A DNA stretch of 35,953 nucleotides, taken from positions 1 through 35,953 of the forward strand of contig JAIBBR010000046.1 in assembly GCA_019694575.1 (NCBI GenBank), read 5' to 3'. The notes under the pieces are model-generated. The model searched no databases. It had not been told where the DNA came from and worked only from the letters and a program-made list of their open reading frames with translations. The translations under genes and the position numbers were made by a program. The DNA comes from Myxococcaceae bacterium (GTDB taxonomy: Bacteria; Myxococcota; Myxococcia; Myxococcales; Myxococcaceae). Positions 25,696 to 35,953 of this stretch are shown in pieces; the first letter of the stretch is position 1; the number at the start of each line of letters is the position of its first letter.

Positions 25696-27381
25696 GTGAC
25701 CCGCGTGGCCCGACTGTATTCCCGCTTGCTGGCGGTGGTGCCGGTGTTACTGCTTGGCGCTTGCCGTGACAGTGCGTTCAACGCTGCGTCGAAAGCCGGC
25801 ACGCCCGAAGCGCTGCGGTTGTATCTCGCCCAGCACCCTGAAGATGAACAGGTGCCCGCGGCGCAGGCGCAGCTCGAAGAGAAAGTCTTCGCGCAAGCGC
25901 GCGAAGCACACTCCGTGGTTGGGTACAAACGCTTCTTAGAAGAATTTCCCGAAGGGGCGCACGCTCCGTCAGCGCGCGCATTGCTCGAAGCGTTGCGGTT
26001 CAACGCCGCGAAAGACAAAGGCACTGCTACCGCGTGGAGACAATTTCTCGAAGATCACCCGCAAGGCGCCAAGGCGGCCCAAGCCCGCGACACCTTGCGC
26101 GCTCTCGAGCTGAAGCAAGTGTTGACCCCCGACGCCGACGCCGCGGCACTCGCGCGGGCCGCCGAGACGGCAGACGACGTGGCGGGAGCGCCGCTGCGTG
26201 AGCGGCTCGACGCGCAGACGTTCAAAGAAGCGCAAGGCCCGCGCGCCTGGTTTGATTACCTGCGTCGTTTCCCCGCTGGTAAATTTCGCGACGAAGCCAA
26301 AGCTGGCCTGTTGAACGCGCAGCTCGAGGGCTTGCTCGTCTCTGGTCAAATCGATGCCGCCACCGACTTGGTGAAGCGCTCGCCATTGGCCTCCGGGTTG
26401 AAAGGCGCCGCGGCACGGTTGTCGCACGAAACCGAAATGCTCAAGCTGCTCCAAGTGAAAGAACCCGCGGTACAACGCGCGTTGCCGCAGTTCTACCGCC
26501 GTTCGTTCGAAGACTTGAAAGACGCGTTGGGCTCATCTGACGCGCGCGACCGTTGGGACGCAGCGGTTGAGCTCGGTCACCATGTCGACGTGCGGGCAAT
26601 CGATGCGCTGCTCGAGGTTCTCAAGACCAACCGCAACGACAAGGTTCGACGGCACGCCGCCGAGAGCTTGCGGCAGGTGCTTACATTGTTGCCGCCACAG
26701 GCGGCTGAATACGAAGTGTTTTCGCGCATCGAAGCGGGGCGCGATACATCGAAAGACAGCAAGGTGATTATCGCGAATGGCCTTTTGCTCGAAGGGCTGA
26801 ACCTCGTCGACGACGCGCGGTTAGAATACCAGAAGGCTTTCGAGCCGCGGCTGCTCGACCCGGTGCTGTTGGCGCGTGGCGCGCAGATGCGTTTAGCGCG
26901 CAACGAAAATTATTCTGCGGTTGTAGCGGCGCGGTTGCTTGCGGTGTGGGCCCAAGAAACGATCGACGAGAATTTAGAGCCAGACGATCTTTCGGTTTCG
27001 GCGACGCGTCAGGTGTGCGCCGCGGCCGATGCGTCACGCCAAGCCGCGCAGATCTTCGCGCAAGTGCGTGGCAAACCTACCGAGTTTCAGAAAGACATTG
27101 AACAGTTCGAGCGGCAAGCGATGGCCTCCCGAGCCTTGGTTGAGGCGCGTCTACGAGACATGGAGCTCAAGGTGATGGAAAAAGACGCCAGCTTTCGCCC
27201 GTGTTTCGCAGAAGGCGCCGCCGAGCGCCTGGCAGTGGCCGACCAGAAGCGGCTCGAAGCATTCAAAAAGCTGACGCCACAGTGGTCGGGCAAAGTGCGC
27301 GCGTATGCGCTGCTGCGTGACCCGTCGCCGCAAGTGCGTGCCGCTGCCCAAGCGAGCCCGGCGAGTGCAACAGGCCAGTGA
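25696..27381 (+). CDS. lipoprotein with helical repeats and a HEAT-like segment
   Basis: A 561-residue protein starting with GTG 25696 (GTG 25705 is possible). The signal peptide ends in LLLGAC (Cys23). The first 200 residues contain TPR-like helical repeats of the form FLxxxPxGxxAxxAR (RFLEEFPEGAHAPSAR, QFLEDHPQGAKAAQAR, YLRRFPAGKFRDEAK). Near the middle is one or two HEAT-like units (SDARDRWDAAVELGHHVDVRAIDALLEVL, given here only in part: RWDAAVELGHHVD and KVRRHAAESLRQVL). The rest is helical. It probably serves as a periplasmic or outer-membrane-attached interaction scaffold. It precedes the Hsp70 gene by 53 bases. Confidence 0.88.
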   Translation: MTRVARLYSRLLAVVPVLLLGACRDSAFNAASKAGTPEALRLYLAQHPEDEQVPAAQAQLEEKVFAQAREAHSVVGYKRFLEEFPEGAHAPSARALLEALRFNAAKDKGTATAWRQFLEDHPQGAKAAQARDTLRALELKQVLTPDADAAALARAAETADDVAGAPLRERLDAQTFKEAQGPRAWFDYLRRFPAGKFRDEAKAGLLNAQLEGLLVSGQIDAATDLVKRSPLASGLKGAAARLSHETEMLKLLQVKEPAVQRALPQFYRRSFEDLKDALGSSDARDRWDAAVELGHHVDVRAIDALLEVLKTNRNDKVRRHAAESLRQVLTLLPPQAAEYEVFSRIEAGRDTSKDSKVIIANGLLLEGLNLVDDARLEYQKAFEPRLLDPVLLARGAQMRLARNENYSAVVAARLLAVWAQETIDENLEPDDLSVSATRQVCAAADASRQAAQIFAQVRGKPTEFQKDIEQFERQAMASRALVEARLRDMELKVMEKDASFRPCFAEGAAERLAVADQKRLEAFKKLTPQWSGKVRAYALLRDPSPQVRAAAQASPASATGQ

Positions 27382-29787: not shown

Positions 29788-30657
29788 ATGGTTTCTACAA
29801 GAGAATCAAATGTTGAGTGGCTTGTTCTTGTGCGCGAAGCGTTCGCAAAGACTGACGGGTCAGCATCTGCGGTGACGGCCGCGCTGGCAAAGACCTTCTC
29901 CAATGCCGGGGCTGTGGCCGGTGCGTTCATCGAAGGGCTTGGTGAATTGATGGGGTACGCCGAGAAGGCGGCCAGCGGCACGGCAATTGATGCTGAAATC
30001 GAGGCAGTGGCGGCTTCAAGGCGAATCGCTGCTCCAGGCGAAACTGCAGGCGCAAGTCGACGCGTTGGACAAGGAGGGCCAGGGAAAGGCGTTGTGCCTC
30101 GACTGCGGAGGCGTTGCACAGTCAGAGGGTCGGCGCGCAAGGAGGTGGGGCAGCCTCGTGGGGAGCATTGAGCTGAAGCGTCGCTATGCCACATGCGGCA
30201 AGTGCAAGTCAGGCATTGCCCCGCGCAGAAGCCTCTTGGGCTGTCTGAGAGTGACTTCACGCCGCGGCTCGAAGAAGTGACGACAATGTTGGCGACGACG
30301 GTGCCGTACGGCATGGCGACGAGCTTGGTGGAAAAATTGTGTGGCATCGAGGTGAGCATCAAAGGTGCAGAGGAGATGACCTGGCGTCGAGGCGAAGCAG
30401 TGCTTTCGCAGAATGCAGCCGAGGCGGAAAAATGTGCGGGCGGCTATCCGTCTCCCTCTCAATGCAAGGTCTCGTCGACCAAGCCAATGGCGGCACTTCC
30501 TCGTGCCACCCGCAGGCAACGCTGCAGGCGCAACGATGCTGACCTACTCAAGCGCGCGACAGCCATTCTTGAACGTTACCGATTCAACAGCGTGAACGAT
30601 GCGCAAGCACACGGCCTCGCGTCGCGAACGCTTCAACGGCTTAAGGCTGTTCCTTAA
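29788..30657 (+). pseudogene. decayed ISKra4-like transposase gene
   Basis: Pieces of one transposase appear in shifting frames. The first runs from ATG 29788 (VSTRESNVEWLVLVREAF) to about 30005. The second frame continues with LQAKLQAQVDALDKEG and a zinc-ribbon region with two CxxC pairs (CLDCG, CGKC) and RRYATC. The first frame resumes near 30235 with LGLSESDFTPRLEEV, MLATTVPYGMA and IKGAEEMTWRRGEAVL. This order matches the N-terminal half of ISKra4-family transposases. The catalytic DDE half is missing or unrecognisable. The open frame continues to 30657 with a helical tail (LERYRFNSVNDAQAHGLASR) of unknown origin. Two opposite shifts plus truncation show it is dead. Terminal inverted repeats were not found. 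Confidence 0.7.
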
Positions 30658-30665
30658 ATTCGAGC

Positions 30666-32513
30666 CTACCGCCCGCTGGCCCACCAAGCGGCTGTTCCCA
30701 CATCTCGGAGCGTGTTGGTGCCGCAGTGCACTTCGCCGGCTTCGCGGTGGTACAGGTCCCAGTCTTCGACCCACGCCACGTTCACCCCCACCGTTGACAG
30801 CGCCATTTCGAGCTGGGTTTTGAAAATGTCCTTCCCGTCGACCAATGGACCATGAGGGTCGGGCGACGCGAACAGGTTGTCCTTCACGTACAACCCATTC
30901 ACCGTGCCTGGCTGATACGCCAACGACTGCCCCTGCGAAGACTCGTGCAAGTACGGCACGCGAATGATCTCTGCATCGGTCAGACCAGTGGCTTGCTTCA
31001 AAATCTGCACCTGCGAGTCTACGTGTGCCGCGGTGGTGCTGCTCTCGCCCATCACCCCGGTGTCGGCGAGCACTTCTTGAATCGACACCTGCGCGGGTGT
31101 CTCAAAACCGTTGTCCTGAATCCAGTTCATACCCACGAACATGCGGGTGCTGCCTCGGCCCGCTTGCACTTCGTTTTGGAGCATTTGGCGCGCGAGGGTC
31201 GGGTCGTTCACCAGCATCACCCAGCCCCGCGGGGTGTTGGCGCGCACAAAGCTGATCGTCTCATCGACGTGGCCCACCAAAAGCCATGACGTGTCGACGT
31301 ACACCGGCGGTTGCACCGATTGCGACTCGAGCATTTTGGCAAACACAGGGTCGGGAAAGAACGTGGCCGTCGAACCGCGAAAGAGCCGACCCAAGGGGAA
31401 GGTTTCGTTGCCCAGTGTGTAGGGTGGAATCGTCTCGGTGTTGCCGAAAGAATTCAGAGAATCGGCGTCGGGGTTGTGGTTCACATCAAAAGCTTGAAGG
31501 CCGGCTGCGTCGGGCCCACGAAATTTGGCGAAGACCACCTTGCCAGCAGACCGCAGCGGGTTGCGCGCGCTTTCTTGATACACGTTGGCTGAGCGCAGGT
31601 AGACGTTGATCACATGCGGCCCTCCTACGGCGGGCATCGACATCGATGCCACTTCGAAGAAGTCTTGGGTCCATTGGTCCATGAGGGGGTAATCGCCGCC
31701 GAACGAAGCCTCGCCGTTAATTTCCTTCAGCATGTCTTGTGAAGCGTTGGGCCCATGCGCCGTGTTGATCGCCGCACGCAACCCACGCCGTGTCGCCACT
31801 GAGCCAGGGTCGCTGTTCATCGCGGTGACGTAGAACTCTTTTTCACGCAGCAGGTGGTGCGCAGTGACAACCGGAGCCACCCGCAACTTCACGCTGTCGC
31901 TGCGTTGACCCACGGTGAATGTGACGGTGACATAGCCGTCCCACTCGGCGCGGTCGCGTACGATGTCGGTGGCCTCAATGGCCAAAGTGACGCCGGTACG
32001 GAGCAAACCGGTCGTCAGCGGCTCGTTTTGCCAGTTGAAATATTCATATGCATTGTCGCGCTTGATGAAGAGCCGTACATGCCCCGCAGCAGCCGCGTCG
32101 ATTGCTAGCCGCCCCTGCACCCCGTCAGCAGTGAAGGGAGAACGGCGAATGGCCAACGGAGCCAAGTCGAGCAAATCGGCGTCGCCGTTAATCACCGTGT
32201 CAGCGGCGTCGTTGCACTTGGCCAAGGTGTTGTCGTCGAGCAGTTTGCCTTGACTCGTTGTTGAACCGCAGGCGCCCTGATCGTCGTCGATATTGGCCAA
32301 CATGATCGCGCCATGTGTCGCGTTCCACGTGGTCTTGTCGTTTTCTTCGGTGGGGTCGCCCCAATCGAGCGTGCCGTTGCGGTTGGTGTCGGCGATGATC
32401 TGCACCACCGGCTCGTTTGATACCGGGTAAACGTCGGCGTTCAACGTAGACAAGGGGGCATTTCCACCACAGGCGCTGCCCACCCCAACCGCGATCATCA
32501 ATAAGCGCTTCAT
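30666..32513 (-). CDS. protein-arginine deiminase family lipoprotein
   Basis: A 615-residue protein. The signal peptide ends in a lipobox VGSAC (Cys15), so it is exported and lipid-anchored. Residues 42-53 (DTNRNGTLDWGD) form an EF-hand-like calcium loop. From about residue 195 the sequence follows vertebrate PAD enzymes: VKLRVAPVV and EFYVTAMNSD (middle domain), DQWTQDFFEVAS, SLNSFGNTETIPPYT, FPLGRLFRG, WLLVGHVDETISFV and HREAGEVHCGTNTLRD. Asp284, His415, Asp417 and Cys597 correspond to Asp350, His471, Asp473 and Cys645 of human PAD4. The predicted reaction is calcium-dependent conversion of peptidyl-arginine to peptidyl-citrulline with ammonia release. It overlaps the upstream HEAT gene by ATGA. 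Activity and targets are not known. Confidence 0.93.
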   Translation of the reverse strand: MKRLLMIAVGVGSACGGNAPLSTLNADVYPVSNEPVVQIIADTNRNGTLDWGDPTEENDKTTWNATHGAIMLANIDDDQGACGSTTSQGKLLDDNTLAKCNDAADTVINGDADLLDLAPLAIRRSPFTADGVQGRLAIDAAAAGHVRLFIKRDNAYEYFNWQNEPLTTGLLRTGVTLAIEATDIVRDRAEWDGYVTVTFTVGQRSDSVKLRVAPVVTAHHLLREKEFYVTAMNSDPGSVATRRGLRAAINTAHGPNASQDMLKEINGEASFGGDYPLMDQWTQDFFEVASMSMPAVGGPHVINVYLRSANVYQESARNPLRSAGKVVFAKFRGPDAAGLQAFDVNHNPDADSLNSFGNTETIPPYTLGNETFPLGRLFRGSTATFFPDPVFAKMLESQSVQPPVYVDTSWLLVGHVDETISFVRANTPRGWVMLVNDPTLARQMLQNEVQAGRGSTRMFVGMNWIQDNGFETPAQVSIQEVLADTGVMGESSTTAAHVDSQVQILKQATGLTDAEIIRVPYLHESSQGQSLAYQPGTVNGLYVKDNLFASPDPHGPLVDGKDIFKTQLEMALSTVGVNVAWVEDWDLYHREAGEVHCGTNTLRDVGTAAWWASGR

Positions 32514-33454
32514 CGGGCCACCCGGGTTGGGTTGTGATCAAAACGGGTTCGCAAGGCCGCCAAGGCTGTCTGTCCGGGTGGCGATGCGTGAGCCATTTCG
32601 GCGGCGATCAACGCCGGTGTTTCAGGGGCATCAATCGCCATCAGCGCGTCAGATGCCGCATCACGTGCTTCTCCCTCGGTGGAAATGAAGAGCGTGAGCG
32701 CCGCCCGCGCGGTCTGGCTGCGCAGTGAGGCCATTTCGGCGGCGGGCTTGTCGAGCGTTTCCAAGGCCCATGCCGAGCCCATGGTTCCGAGCGACTGCGC
32801 GACGCGCTTGGCCCGGGCCGTATCAGGCTTGCTCGCAGCCACCGCCATCAGTGCGCGGGCGGCGACCGGGTGCCGGCAAGACCCTAACCCGGCGATCACC
32901 GCGTCTTGCTTGTTTCCAGGGCTGGTGGCGAGCTTGGCCAGCCAGGTGACGTCGGCATCGAGCCCCAGCTTGCCCAGCGCTTCAGCCGCGGCGCGCAGCT
33001 CGAAGAATTCTACCCCGTTTGCCAGAATCGCTCGGTACACCGGCGCGGCGAGATCGTCTTTGAAGTTGCCCGCCGCTTCGAGCAGCCCCGCGCGCAAAGC
33101 CACCTGGGCACTGGGTGACTGAGGCCGCACAAACCGCTCGGGGAAAATCACCGGCTCGAGCAGCAGCAGAGCGGGGTGACCGGTGGCTCCGCGTGCCGCT
33201 TGTCGCAGCATCGGCCCCATGGGAAAGAAGCGGCCTCTGCGCTTTTGATCGAAAGTGTCGGCACGTTTGACAATCGCCGCCACCGCCGTTGCAACCCGTG
33301 GTGCTTCGAGCTTGGCGAGACCGAGCACCGCGGCGATGTGCTCTTTCGAAGCCACATCAAGGGGTACCGAGGCCAAAGGTGCGGTGTTTTGCGCGAATGA
33401 AGGCACCGCAACCAGAAAAGCGGGAACCACCAGCGATCGAAGAAGAAGGTGCAT
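32510..33454 (-). CDS. exported HEAT-repeat protein coupled to PAD
   Basis: A 314-residue protein. ATG 33454 is chosen because it opens a clean signal peptide (LLLRSLVVPAFLVAVPSFAQ); upstream in-frame codons would only add an unlikely N-terminus overlapping argH. The mature part is a series of about five to seven HEAT-like helix pairs (AALRAGLLEAAGNF, LRAAAEALGKLGLDADV, ARALMAVAASKPD, KRVAQSLGTMGSAWAL, ARDAASDALMAID). HEAT arrays are protein-binding solenoids. Its stop overlaps the PAD start (ATGA), so the two are made together and both exported. It begins 80 bases after argH. Confidence 0.88.
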   Translation of the reverse strand: MHLLLRSLVVPAFLVAVPSFAQNTAPLASVPLDVASKEHIAAVLGLAKLEAPRVATAVAAIVKRADTFDQKRRGRFFPMGPMLRQAARGATGHPALLLLEPVIFPERFVRPQSPSAQVALRAGLLEAAGNFKDDLAAPVYRAILANGVEFFELRAAAEALGKLGLDADVTWLAKLATSPGNKQDAVIAGLGSCRHPVAARALMAVAASKPDTARAKRVAQSLGTMGSAWALETLDKPAAEMASLRSQTARAALTLFISTEGEARDAASDALMAIDAPETPALIAAEMAHASPPGQTALAALRTRFDHNPTRVAR

Positions 33455-33534: not shown

Positions 33535-34938
33535 CTAAGCCCTCTTGGCGTGGGCTGCAAGCCGCTGTGTCCATGTGGTGAGACCTTGCGCCACACGTTT
33601 GCGCGCCGTACCGCCCACCAGGGCTTTGCGATCGATGGCGGCGTCGACGGTGAGCATGGTCAGCGCGTCAGCGTCGAAATGGGCTGAAAAAGAACGAAGC
33701 TCATTGAGCGAAAGTTGCGTGAGCTCGCGGCCATTGTCGACGCCAAAGCGAACCAAGCGCCCGATGGTTTCATGGGCTTCACGAAACGGTACACCTTTGA
33801 GCACCAGGTAATCGGCGAGCTCGGTGGCCAACATGCCGCCTTGCTCAGCGGCTTGGCGCAGGCGCGACCGGTTCATTTTCAACCGCGCGATCATCGCCGT
33901 ATAAACCTCGAGCGACGAAGTCACTGTGTCCAACGCGTCGAAGAGCGCTTCTTTGTCTTCTTGCAAGTCGCGGTTGTAACTGAGCGGCAGACCTTTGAGC
34001 GTGGTGAGCAGCCCGATCAAGTGCCCATAGACGCGGCCTGTCTTGCCGCGCACCAGTTCAGGCACGTCAGGGTTTTTCTTCTGCGGCATCATGCTGCTGC
34101 CGGTGCAAAAGGCATCGGGCAAGTCGACGAACTGAAATTCCTGCGACGACCACAAAATCAGCTCTTCGCTCAAGCGTGACAGGTGCATCATCACCAGCGA
34201 AAGCGCGGCCACCACTTCCACCACGAAGTCGCGATCAGACACGCCATCTAAGCTGTTCTGGGTGACCGTGGGAAAGTCGAGCAGCTGCGCGGTGTAGTGG
34301 CGATCGACAGGGTAGTTGTTGCCCGCCAAAGCGCCTGAACCCAGCGGCATGACATTCAGTCGGGCCAGTGCGTCGTGAAGGCGGCCTTTGTCGCGCTCAA
34401 ACATTTCGACATAAGCCAGCAGGTGGTGGGCGAAGAGCACGGGTTGGGCACGTTGCAAGTGGGTATACCCCGGCATCACCACGTCGCGGTGGGCGTGCGC
34501 TTGTTCCACCAAGGTGCGCTGAAATGACACAACCGCTCGCGCCAAATCAGCCAACGCGTCGCGCAGGTAAAGCCGAATATCCAACGCGACCTGATCATTG
34601 CGGCTGCGGCCGGTGTGTACCTTGCCACCCACAGGGCCGATCAGTTCAGTGAGCCTGCGTTCAATGGCCATGTGAATGTCTTCGTCTTGTGCCTTGAAGC
34701 GAAACCTGCCCTTGTCGAGCTCGGCTTTTACGTTGCCCAAGCCGCGAATGATCGCCGCGCCGTCTTTTGCACTTAGCACCTTGGCGCGGACCAATGTCTT
34801 GCAGTGGGCGACGCTGCCCATGATGTCGTGCGCGTAGAGCCGGCGATCCACCGCCAACGAAGCGGTAAAGATTTCTACCAGGCGGTTGGTCGGCTCTTTG
34901 AAACGCCCCGCCCACGCTTTTTGTCGTCGCTTGGCCAT
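33535..34938 (-). CDS. argH: argininosuccinate lyase
   Basis: A 467-residue protein that splits argininosuccinate into arginine and fumarate, the last step of arginine synthesis. It starts AKRRQKAWAGRF. Family motifs include HTGRSRNDQVALD, PGYTHLQRAQPV, the fumarase/lyase signature GSSMMPQKKNPD and LPLSYNRDLQEDKE. It begins 16 bases after the argG stop. The spacer is pyrimidine-rich with no visible Shine-Dalgarno sequence, so its translation may depend on argG. Confidence 0.97.
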   Translation of the reverse strand: MAKRRQKAWAGRFKEPTNRLVEIFTASLAVDRRLYAHDIMGSVAHCKTLVRAKVLSAKDGAAIIRGLGNVKAELDKGRFRFKAQDEDIHMAIERRLTELIGPVGGKVHTGRSRNDQVALDIRLYLRDALADLARAVVSFQRTLVEQAHAHRDVVMPGYTHLQRAQPVLFAHHLLAYVEMFERDKGRLHDALARLNVMPLGSGALAGNNYPVDRHYTAQLLDFPTVTQNSLDGVSDRDFVVEVVAALSLVMMHLSRLSEELILWSSQEFQFVDLPDAFCTGSSMMPQKKNPDVPELVRGKTGRVYGHLIGLLTTLKGLPLSYNRDLQEDKEALFDALDTVTSSLEVYTAMIARLKMNRSRLRQAAEQGGMLATELADYLVLKGVPFREAHETIGRLVRFGVDNGRELTQLSLNELRSFSAHFDADALTMLTVDAAIDRKALVGGTARKRVAQGLTTWTQRLAAHAKRA

Positions 34939-34954
34939 GGAAAAGAGAGCGGCG

Positions 34955-35953
34955 TTAACTGTTTTTTCGCTGCGTGCGAATGGCGAGCCGCAAAGCGTTC
35001 AGGCGAATGAAGCCTTCGGCGTCTTTCTGCCGGTACACGTCGTCTTCTTCGAAGGTGGCCATGTCGAGCCGGTAGAGCGACTTTTCCGACTTGCGGCCCA
35101 CCACCATGCAGTTGCCTTTGTAGAGGCGCACCCGAACCGTGCCGCTGACGTCTTTCTGGGCGTCATCGAGCGCACGCTGCAGCATTTCGCGTTCTGGGCT
35201 GTACCAATAGCCGTAATAAATCAGCTCGGCGTAGCGGGGAATGAGGCTGTCACGCAGGTGCAGCACTTCGCGGTCCATCGTCAACGATTCCAGTCCCCGG
35301 TGGGCCGCGTGCAAAATGGTGCCGCCTGGAGTTTCGTAGACACCGCGCGACTTGATACCCACGTAGCGGTTTTCCACCAAATCGACACGGCCGACGCCAT
35401 GCTCACCGCCCACTTTGTTCAAGTGTGCCAGTAAAGCCGCGGGGGCCATTTTCTTGCCGTCCACCGCCACCGGGTCGCCTTGCAGGTAGTCGATTTCGAG
35501 TTCCACCGGTTGGTCGGGGGCTTTCTGAGGCGACACGCTCATCACGAAAATTTCTTCAGGGGGCGCCTTCCACGGGTCTTCGAGAATGCCGCCTTCGTAG
35601 CTCACGTGAAAGAGGTTCATGTCCATGCTGTAGGGCTTGGCGCGGGTAGCGGTGACAGGAATGCCGTGCTTTTCGGCGTAAGCGATGAGATCGCTGCGCG
35701 AGCGAAAGTCCCAGTCGCGCCAGGGGGCAATGATTTTGATCTTCGGGTCCATCGCCATGTACGTCAGCTCGAACCTCACCTGATCGTTGCCTTTGCCGGT
35801 GGCGCCATGACACACCGCTTCGGCGCCTTCTTTGTTGGCGATTTCAATTTGGCGTTTGGCGATCAGCGGCCGGGCGATAGAGGTGCCAAGCAGGTAAGTG
35901 CCCTCGTACACCGCGTTGCCGCGCAGCATGGGGAACACGTGATCTCGAACGAA
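34955..35953 (-). CDS. argG: argininosuccinate synthase (N-terminus outside window)
   Basis: The frame is open to the last base, so about 70 N-terminal residues including the ATP-pyrophosphatase loop are missing. The visible 332 residues carry [53 protein letters not shown] and [17 protein letters not shown], all typical of ArgG. The enzyme joins citrulline and aspartate using ATP. It is the first visible gene of a minus-strand run continuing through argH, the HEAT gene and PAD. Confidence 0.97.

Follow-up and report, generated by a model that had tools for sequence, protein, structure and literature searches.

Protein-arginine deiminases (PADs) matter in human disease, where they are tied to arthritis and neutrophil traps, and to our knowledge their bacterial relatives have barely been studied. 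A survey of the superfamily (Cummings et al. 2021, PMC8826395) separates two groups. The animal and cyanobacterial clade carries a PAD_N domain, calcium sites 2 and 4, and a calcium-switch aspartate, D389. The actinobacterial, fungal and proteobacterial group has no PAD_N, has a different linker with a triple-histidine motif, and replaces D389 with glycine; its actinobacterial and fungal members also carry D125N and E131D in calcium site 6. The same study reports that the three-domain PADI of Cyanothece sp. 8801, a member of the animal clade, is active and calcium-dependent, and that the Porphyromonas enzyme PPAD belongs to a separate family (PMC8826395).

Here we analyse a PAD gene from a Myxococcaceae bacterium, together with the HEAT-repeat gene that overlaps it. 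Both lie in the 35,953-nucleotide stretch of DNA that we studied, hereafter the window (contig JAIBBR010000046.1).

Results

The PAD gene is an ATG-initiated open reading frame at 30666-32513 on the minus strand, with a product of 615 amino acids. Its features are as follows.

30666-32513, minus strand: PAD coding sequence, 615 amino acids plus stop (Pfam PAD 1.2e-84; AlphaFold2 pLDDT 91.5; human PAD4 overlay Z 50.2)
32469-32513, minus strand: lipoprotein signal MKRLLMIAVGVGSAC with putatively lipidated Cys15 (PROSITE PS51257 pattern as coded here)
32355-32390, minus strand: calcium site 6 loop, residues 42-53 (DTNRNGTLDWGD), aligned with PADI4 120-131
32166-32294, minus strand: calcium ligands of the middle domain (PAD_M), N74, D76, D78, D102, D105, D113 and D116 (PADI4 N153-D179)
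31854-31859, minus strand: AHH linker histidines 219-220 between the middle and catalytic domains, as in bacterial and fungal PADs
30681-31901, minus strand: PAD_C catalytic domain, residues 205-611 (Pfam PF03068, 1.2e-84)
31662-31664, minus strand: catalytic Asp284 (PADI4 D350), in 34 of 34 homologues
31509-31511, minus strand: calcium-switch Asp335 (PADI4 D388), Asp in 27 of 34 homologues, Asn in 6, Gly in 1
31263-31271, minus strand: catalytic His415 and Asp417 (PADI4 H471 and D473), in 34 of 34 homologues
30723-30725, minus strand: catalytic Cys597 (PADI4 C645), in 34 of 34 homologues

The identity of the product as a PAD is far beyond chance, because the catalytic tetrad is invariant and the matches are strong: 1.2e-84 to the Pfam PAD_C model, 1e-38 to human PAD3 in a single-sequence search, and 8e-91 to human PAD4, over nearly the full protein length, in a family-profile search. 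Asp284, His415, Asp417 and Cys597 align with PADI4 D350, H471, D473 and C645, and are unchanged not only in the 34 close homologues but throughout a wider alignment of 42 rows. A first-pass annotation, made from the sequence alone, had named these four positions correctly, along with their spacings (131 residues from Asp to His against 121 in PAD4, and 182 from His to Cys against 174). The equivalent of PAD4 R374 is ambiguous in the alignment and could be R307 or R321.

The structural model agrees with the profile matches. PADs rank first among the fold matches of the AlphaFold model (pLDDT 91.5), which overlays human PAD4 residues 111-663 with a Z-score of about 50 and a deviation of 1.8 Å over about 508 residues. 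This overlay indicates a protein with a middle domain but no PAD_N; just 38 residues precede the middle domain, and the alignment begins at PAD4 residue 111-112. Although the PAD_M Pfam model scores 16 bits, below its cut-off of 24.8, the region is complete in the predicted structure and covers the entire PAD4 middle domain. The annotation had described an intact PAD with a middle-domain block and had proposed a profile search and an overlay on PAD4 as checks; the profile match to PAD_C, the overlay and the conservation of the PAD_M calcium ligands bear the description out. A search against named NCBIfam families gave nothing above cut-off for the PAD or its HEAT partner, a PADLOC search for known defence proteins gave no match, and 50,697 phage records, searched for signs of a phage origin, held no match.

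The same annotation called the enzyme vertebrate-type, a label that does not fit. Calcium site 2 is lost, with PADI4 E351, D369 and N373 replaced by F285, R307 and V311 (369 and 373, in a gap-rich region, are less sure than 351). The linker reads ...VTAHHLL, with two of the three histidines of the triple-His motif, and HH occurs in most homologues. In calcium site 6, N44 and D50 replace D125 and E131 (D125N/E131D). A tree of 43 rows, including human PADI4 and Streptomyces PADs and no cyanobacterial PAD, places the window PAD in a 35-row clade with the Streptomyces PADs (support 100/99); human PADI4 falls outside on a long branch, which leaves its exact place unsure. Because PAD_N is absent, calcium site 2 is lost, the linker is AHH, site 6 carries N44 and D50, and the tree groups the protein with Streptomyces PADs, the window PAD belongs on the bacterial and fungal side. 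Judged from its sequence, the window gene is thus an intact bacterial PAD of that kind.

Ligands of calcium sites 1, 3-5 and 6 are retained. Site 1 keeps Q283, E287, F356 and E360 and is nearly invariant among the 34 homologues. In the middle domain, N74, D76, D78, D102, D113 and D116 occur in 34 of 34, and D105 in 31 of 34. Since the ligands of sites 1 and 3-5 are kept, calcium dependence is likely, as had been suggested at first pass. The EF-hand-like loop reported there is present, from D42 to D53, but it coincides with calcium site 6 and is intrinsic to the PAD; a separate EF-hand module is ruled out by this alignment. Glycine at the calcium switch is confined to one Streptomyces row among the 34. 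A PAD that keeps the switch aspartate and has no calcium site 2 adds detail to the published division of PAD calcium regulation into two types.

The N-terminus of the window PAD, MKRLLMIAVGVGSAC followed by GG, has a positive start, a hydrophobic stretch and a lipobox cysteine at position 15, and matches the PROSITE PS51257 rule as coded here. Position -3 of the lipobox is glycine, which is not the commonest choice there. A strict PS51257-type test is passed by 27 of 52 homologues, against 0.4 expected from shuffled N-termini, and lipoboxes are visible by eye in many further homologues; Streptomyces PADs fail the test. Going by these N-termini, lipoprotein export is a family trait here and the window PAD is probably lipid-anchored, so that the lipoprotein signal noted at first pass is credible.

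Directly upstream of the PAD gene, and overlapping it, lies a second gene on the same strand, a conserved partner that the first-pass annotation had overlooked.

32510-33454, minus strand: predicted Sec-exported HEAT-repeat protein, 314 amino acids, signal MHLLLRSLVVPAFLVAVPSFAQ
32510-32513, minus strand: ATGA overlap, the HEAT stop TGA within the PAD start ATG, which would couple translation of the two genes

The HEAT_2 match in this partner (2.4e-5) falls just short of the Pfam cut-off, and its AlphaFold2 model (pLDDT 92.4) is an all-helical alpha solenoid. A fold search of the PDB returned nothing more specific than generic alphaRep/HEAT matches, and these had low TM-scores. Residues D69, R73-G74, C193-R194, W229, E240 and R245 are conserved in the partner family, and the conserved arginines are R73, R154, R194 (25 of 25) and R245. 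Arginine makes up 9.7% of residues in the family on average and 7.6% in the window protein, which looks ordinary for G+C-rich myxobacteria. Signal peptides are present on partner-family proteins, with starts picked from the listed start codons so that each leads into a signal peptide, and the partner would be exported by Sec.

PADs had been described at first pass as sparse in bacteria. This does not hold here, where 54 of 195 genomes searched in the phylum Myxococcota carry one, and a cyanobacterial PAD had already been assayed (PMC8826395). Genomes G110 and G119 yielded PAD fragments only. Named PAD matches come from Myxococcota and one Acidobacteriota (Holophagae) metagenome-assembled genome, and the nearest homologue, from genome G071, is 59-60% identical to the window PAD.

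The HEAT partner follows the PAD closely. The partner family occurs in 41 of the 195 genomes, all 41 of them PAD-bearing, and has no member in the 141 genomes that lack PAD (Fisher 4e-31). All 44 copies adjoin a PAD gene on the same strand, and within the phylum the family was found nowhere else. This adjacency is not general synteny, because PAD and HEAT are the only widely shared genes across 18 distant loci that we compared. PAD precedes HEAT in 42 of the 44 copies, with HEAT first in the window and in its nearest relative, G071; the 4-nt ATGA overlap is common to most loci, where the gene order is opposite to that of the window. Genomes with two cassettes keep matching PAD/HEAT pairs, and across paralogous cassettes the distances among PADs track those among HEAT proteins (correlation 0.75, against at most 0.42 in permutations), with HEAT evolving 1.35 times faster than PAD. 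Two adjacent, co-inherited genes, with the partner absent wherever PAD is absent (0 of 141), are what would be expected of an effector-immunity pair.

The association has exceptions. A HEAT partner was not detected beside the PADs of L059 (genome G063), L070, L077, L081, L087, L090, L091 and three loci of Streptomycetaceae, so that some PADs do not require one. At L088 the adjacent gene is exported and has no Pfam match. In a single case (L092:5576-9688, genome G115), a PAD with intact active-site motifs and no signal is followed by a HEAT protein that also has no signal, which is the behaviour to be expected if the two proteins bind each other. That PAD sits behind a gene for a peptidoglycan-binding-domain protein.

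The phylum also holds a second, divergent PAD type (L073-L080, L086 and L089), 25-30% identical to the window PAD. These proteins, some of which, L074 among them, have PKD domains, adjoin human PADI4 and its long branch in the tree and may be relevant to how animal PADs arose. The gene beside the PAD contains HEAT_2 at L073, L074, L076, L078, L079, L080, L086 and L089, several of these matches being below cut-off. Elsewhere, a PAD with no signal (L081:8291-10942, genome G127) joins PAD_M and PAD_C to a Ulp1/C48 cysteine protease domain at its C-terminus and looks like a multi-domain effector-type protein. Two further PADs with no signal, each of 753 amino acids (L090:6542-8800 and L091:6948-9206), contain a PAD_M that can be recognised, and are extended at the N-terminus, where L090 gives a weak carboxypeptidase-regulatory-like match; no HEAT partner was found beside either.

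In the window, the pair is preceded on its own strand by argG and argH (33535-35953), an arrangement that is not conserved elsewhere. Some 5 kb from the pair, at 25696-27378 and adjoining an Hsp70 gene, is a gene for another putative lipoprotein (LLLGACRDS) that contains weak HEAT repeats; the partner-family search gave no match to it. Downstream of the PAD, plus-strand open reading frames at 29788-30657 have no Pfam match and give the impression, from their sequence, of transposase remains.

Discussion

We observe a PAD homologue with an intact active site and calcium ligands, a predicted PAD fold and a lipobox, in a conserved, co-inherited cassette. The best explanation, which we consider probable, is a calcium-dependent deiminase, lipid-anchored in the envelope, that works with a dedicated Sec-exported HEAT protein. 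The PAD would be exported and anchored in the myxobacterial cell envelope and would citrullinate arginines of envelope or surface proteins, or of imported or prey proteins, using the standard, calcium-dependent Cys/His/Asp/Asp chemistry. The HEAT solenoid, made in translational coupling with the PAD, would bind it in the same compartment and, as our best guess, restrain or chaperone it. Several points weigh against this explanation. With calcium site 2 and PAD_N missing, calcium regulation may differ; several PADs have no detected partner, and in the window and G071 the two genes stand in the opposite order; the pair with no signals is one case; and plain vertical inheritance also yields a correlation of distances.

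Could the PAD instead be a degenerate, non-catalytic protein, as human PAD6 is described to be? The loss of calcium site 2 would fit, but the tetrad and the ligands of sites 3-5 are conserved among the 34 homologues, and those of site 1 nearly so, which makes this very improbable. We give hardly any credence to a role in arginine or citrulline metabolism, in which the PAD would supply citrulline to argG-argH. In the window these genes immediately precede the pair on its strand, but they lie near the PAD in no other locus examined (L050 has an AAA-ATPase-like gene instead), so that a link to arginine biosynthesis is ruled out as a conserved feature; moreover, the PAD is predicted to be exported and its product would be peptide-bound.

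The role of the partner as an inhibitor is the least certain element of the proposed mechanism. We prefer an inhibitor or guard over a chaperone or scaffold, and either over a substrate; inhibition and chaperoning are about equal, with inhibition slightly favoured because of the gene order, the higher rate at which the partner evolves and the match of compartments. As a guard, a role that we entertain with some doubt, HEAT would be the cognate inhibitor protecting the producer from a PAD that damages arginine-containing proteins in prey, in competitors or in the producer's own envelope, and would be exported with lipoprotein PADs and cytosolic with the PAD that has no signal. The order PAD then HEAT in 42 of 44 copies, mostly with the 4-nt overlap, is consistent with this, as are a partner that evolves faster and is never found without PAD, the tracking of compartments at L092, and the existence of multi-domain PADs with no signal, such as the C48 protease fusion at L081. 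However, the window PAD has no delivery module, its gene order is reversed, several PADs have no partner, and there are no orphan partner copies, whereas orphan copies are common for immunity genes.

The same association, and the confident all-helical model, would also suit a non-inhibitory role in which HEAT, as a chaperone for export, a folding factor or a scaffold, keeps the PAD stable or brings substrates to it. Solenoids of HEAT repeats serve widely as scaffolds that bind other proteins, but the Streptomyces PADs and some myxobacterial ones (L059 and L070) do without a partner, and we hold this reading tentatively. That the PAD acts chiefly on HEAT itself, with citrullination of R73, R154, R194 and R245 altering a binding surface, seems unlikely: the conservation of these arginines speaks for it, but they may be structural, and the arginine content (9.7% in the family, 7.6% in the window) looks ordinary.

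Returning to the guard role, we put forward as a speculative proposal that PAD and HEAT make up a system of two proteins, undescribed so far and present in Myxococcota and at least one genome of Acidobacteriota, where HEAT is a natural PAD inhibitor or guard matched to the compartment of its PAD. Open-access literature, which leaves aside preprints and most subscription papers, held nothing relevant on PAD-HEAT, myxobacterial PADs or PADs as T6SS effectors. The PAD is thus a member of a known superfamily, while the cassette is undescribed as far as that literature shows. A large set of bacterial PADs anchored in the envelope, together with their dedicated partner, would offer tractable models for citrullination outside animals and perhaps, in the HEAT protein, a natural protein that modulates PAD activity.

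Comparison with known systems

The partner resembles bacterial HEAT_2 or PBS-lyase HEAT-like proteins and alphaRep in being an alpha solenoid of HEAT-like repeats. It differs from them in forming a family with its own conserved residues, in its predicted export, and in occurring, in this phylum, only beside PAD. Like Porphyromonas PPAD, a bacterial enzyme that is secreted or at the surface and acts on peptidyl-arginine, the window PAD is a predicted exported deiminase; PPAD is of a separate family, to which a Pfam scan of the window PAD gave no match.

With human PADI1-4 the window PAD shares the fold of the catalytic and middle domains, the tetrad and the ligands of calcium sites 1 and 3-5. 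It is only about 24-26% identical to them, however, lacks PAD_N and calcium site 2, and is a predicted exported lipoprotein. It shares the switch aspartate (PADI2 D389, PADI4 D388) with the vertebrate and cyanobacterial clade, but not PAD_N or site 2, and it has the same catalytic residues as the PADI of Cyanothece sp. 8801 while standing outside the animal clade.

Its closest likeness is to the bacterial and fungal type (PMC8826395), with which it shares PAD_M and PAD_C without PAD_N, the loss of calcium site 2, a histidine-rich linker and D125N/E131D, and whose Streptomyces members, in the same clade, are 35-39% identical to it. Unlike that published type, it keeps the switch aspartate, D335, in place of glycine, reads AHH rather than HHH in the linker, and has an N-terminal lipobox and a HEAT partner gene.
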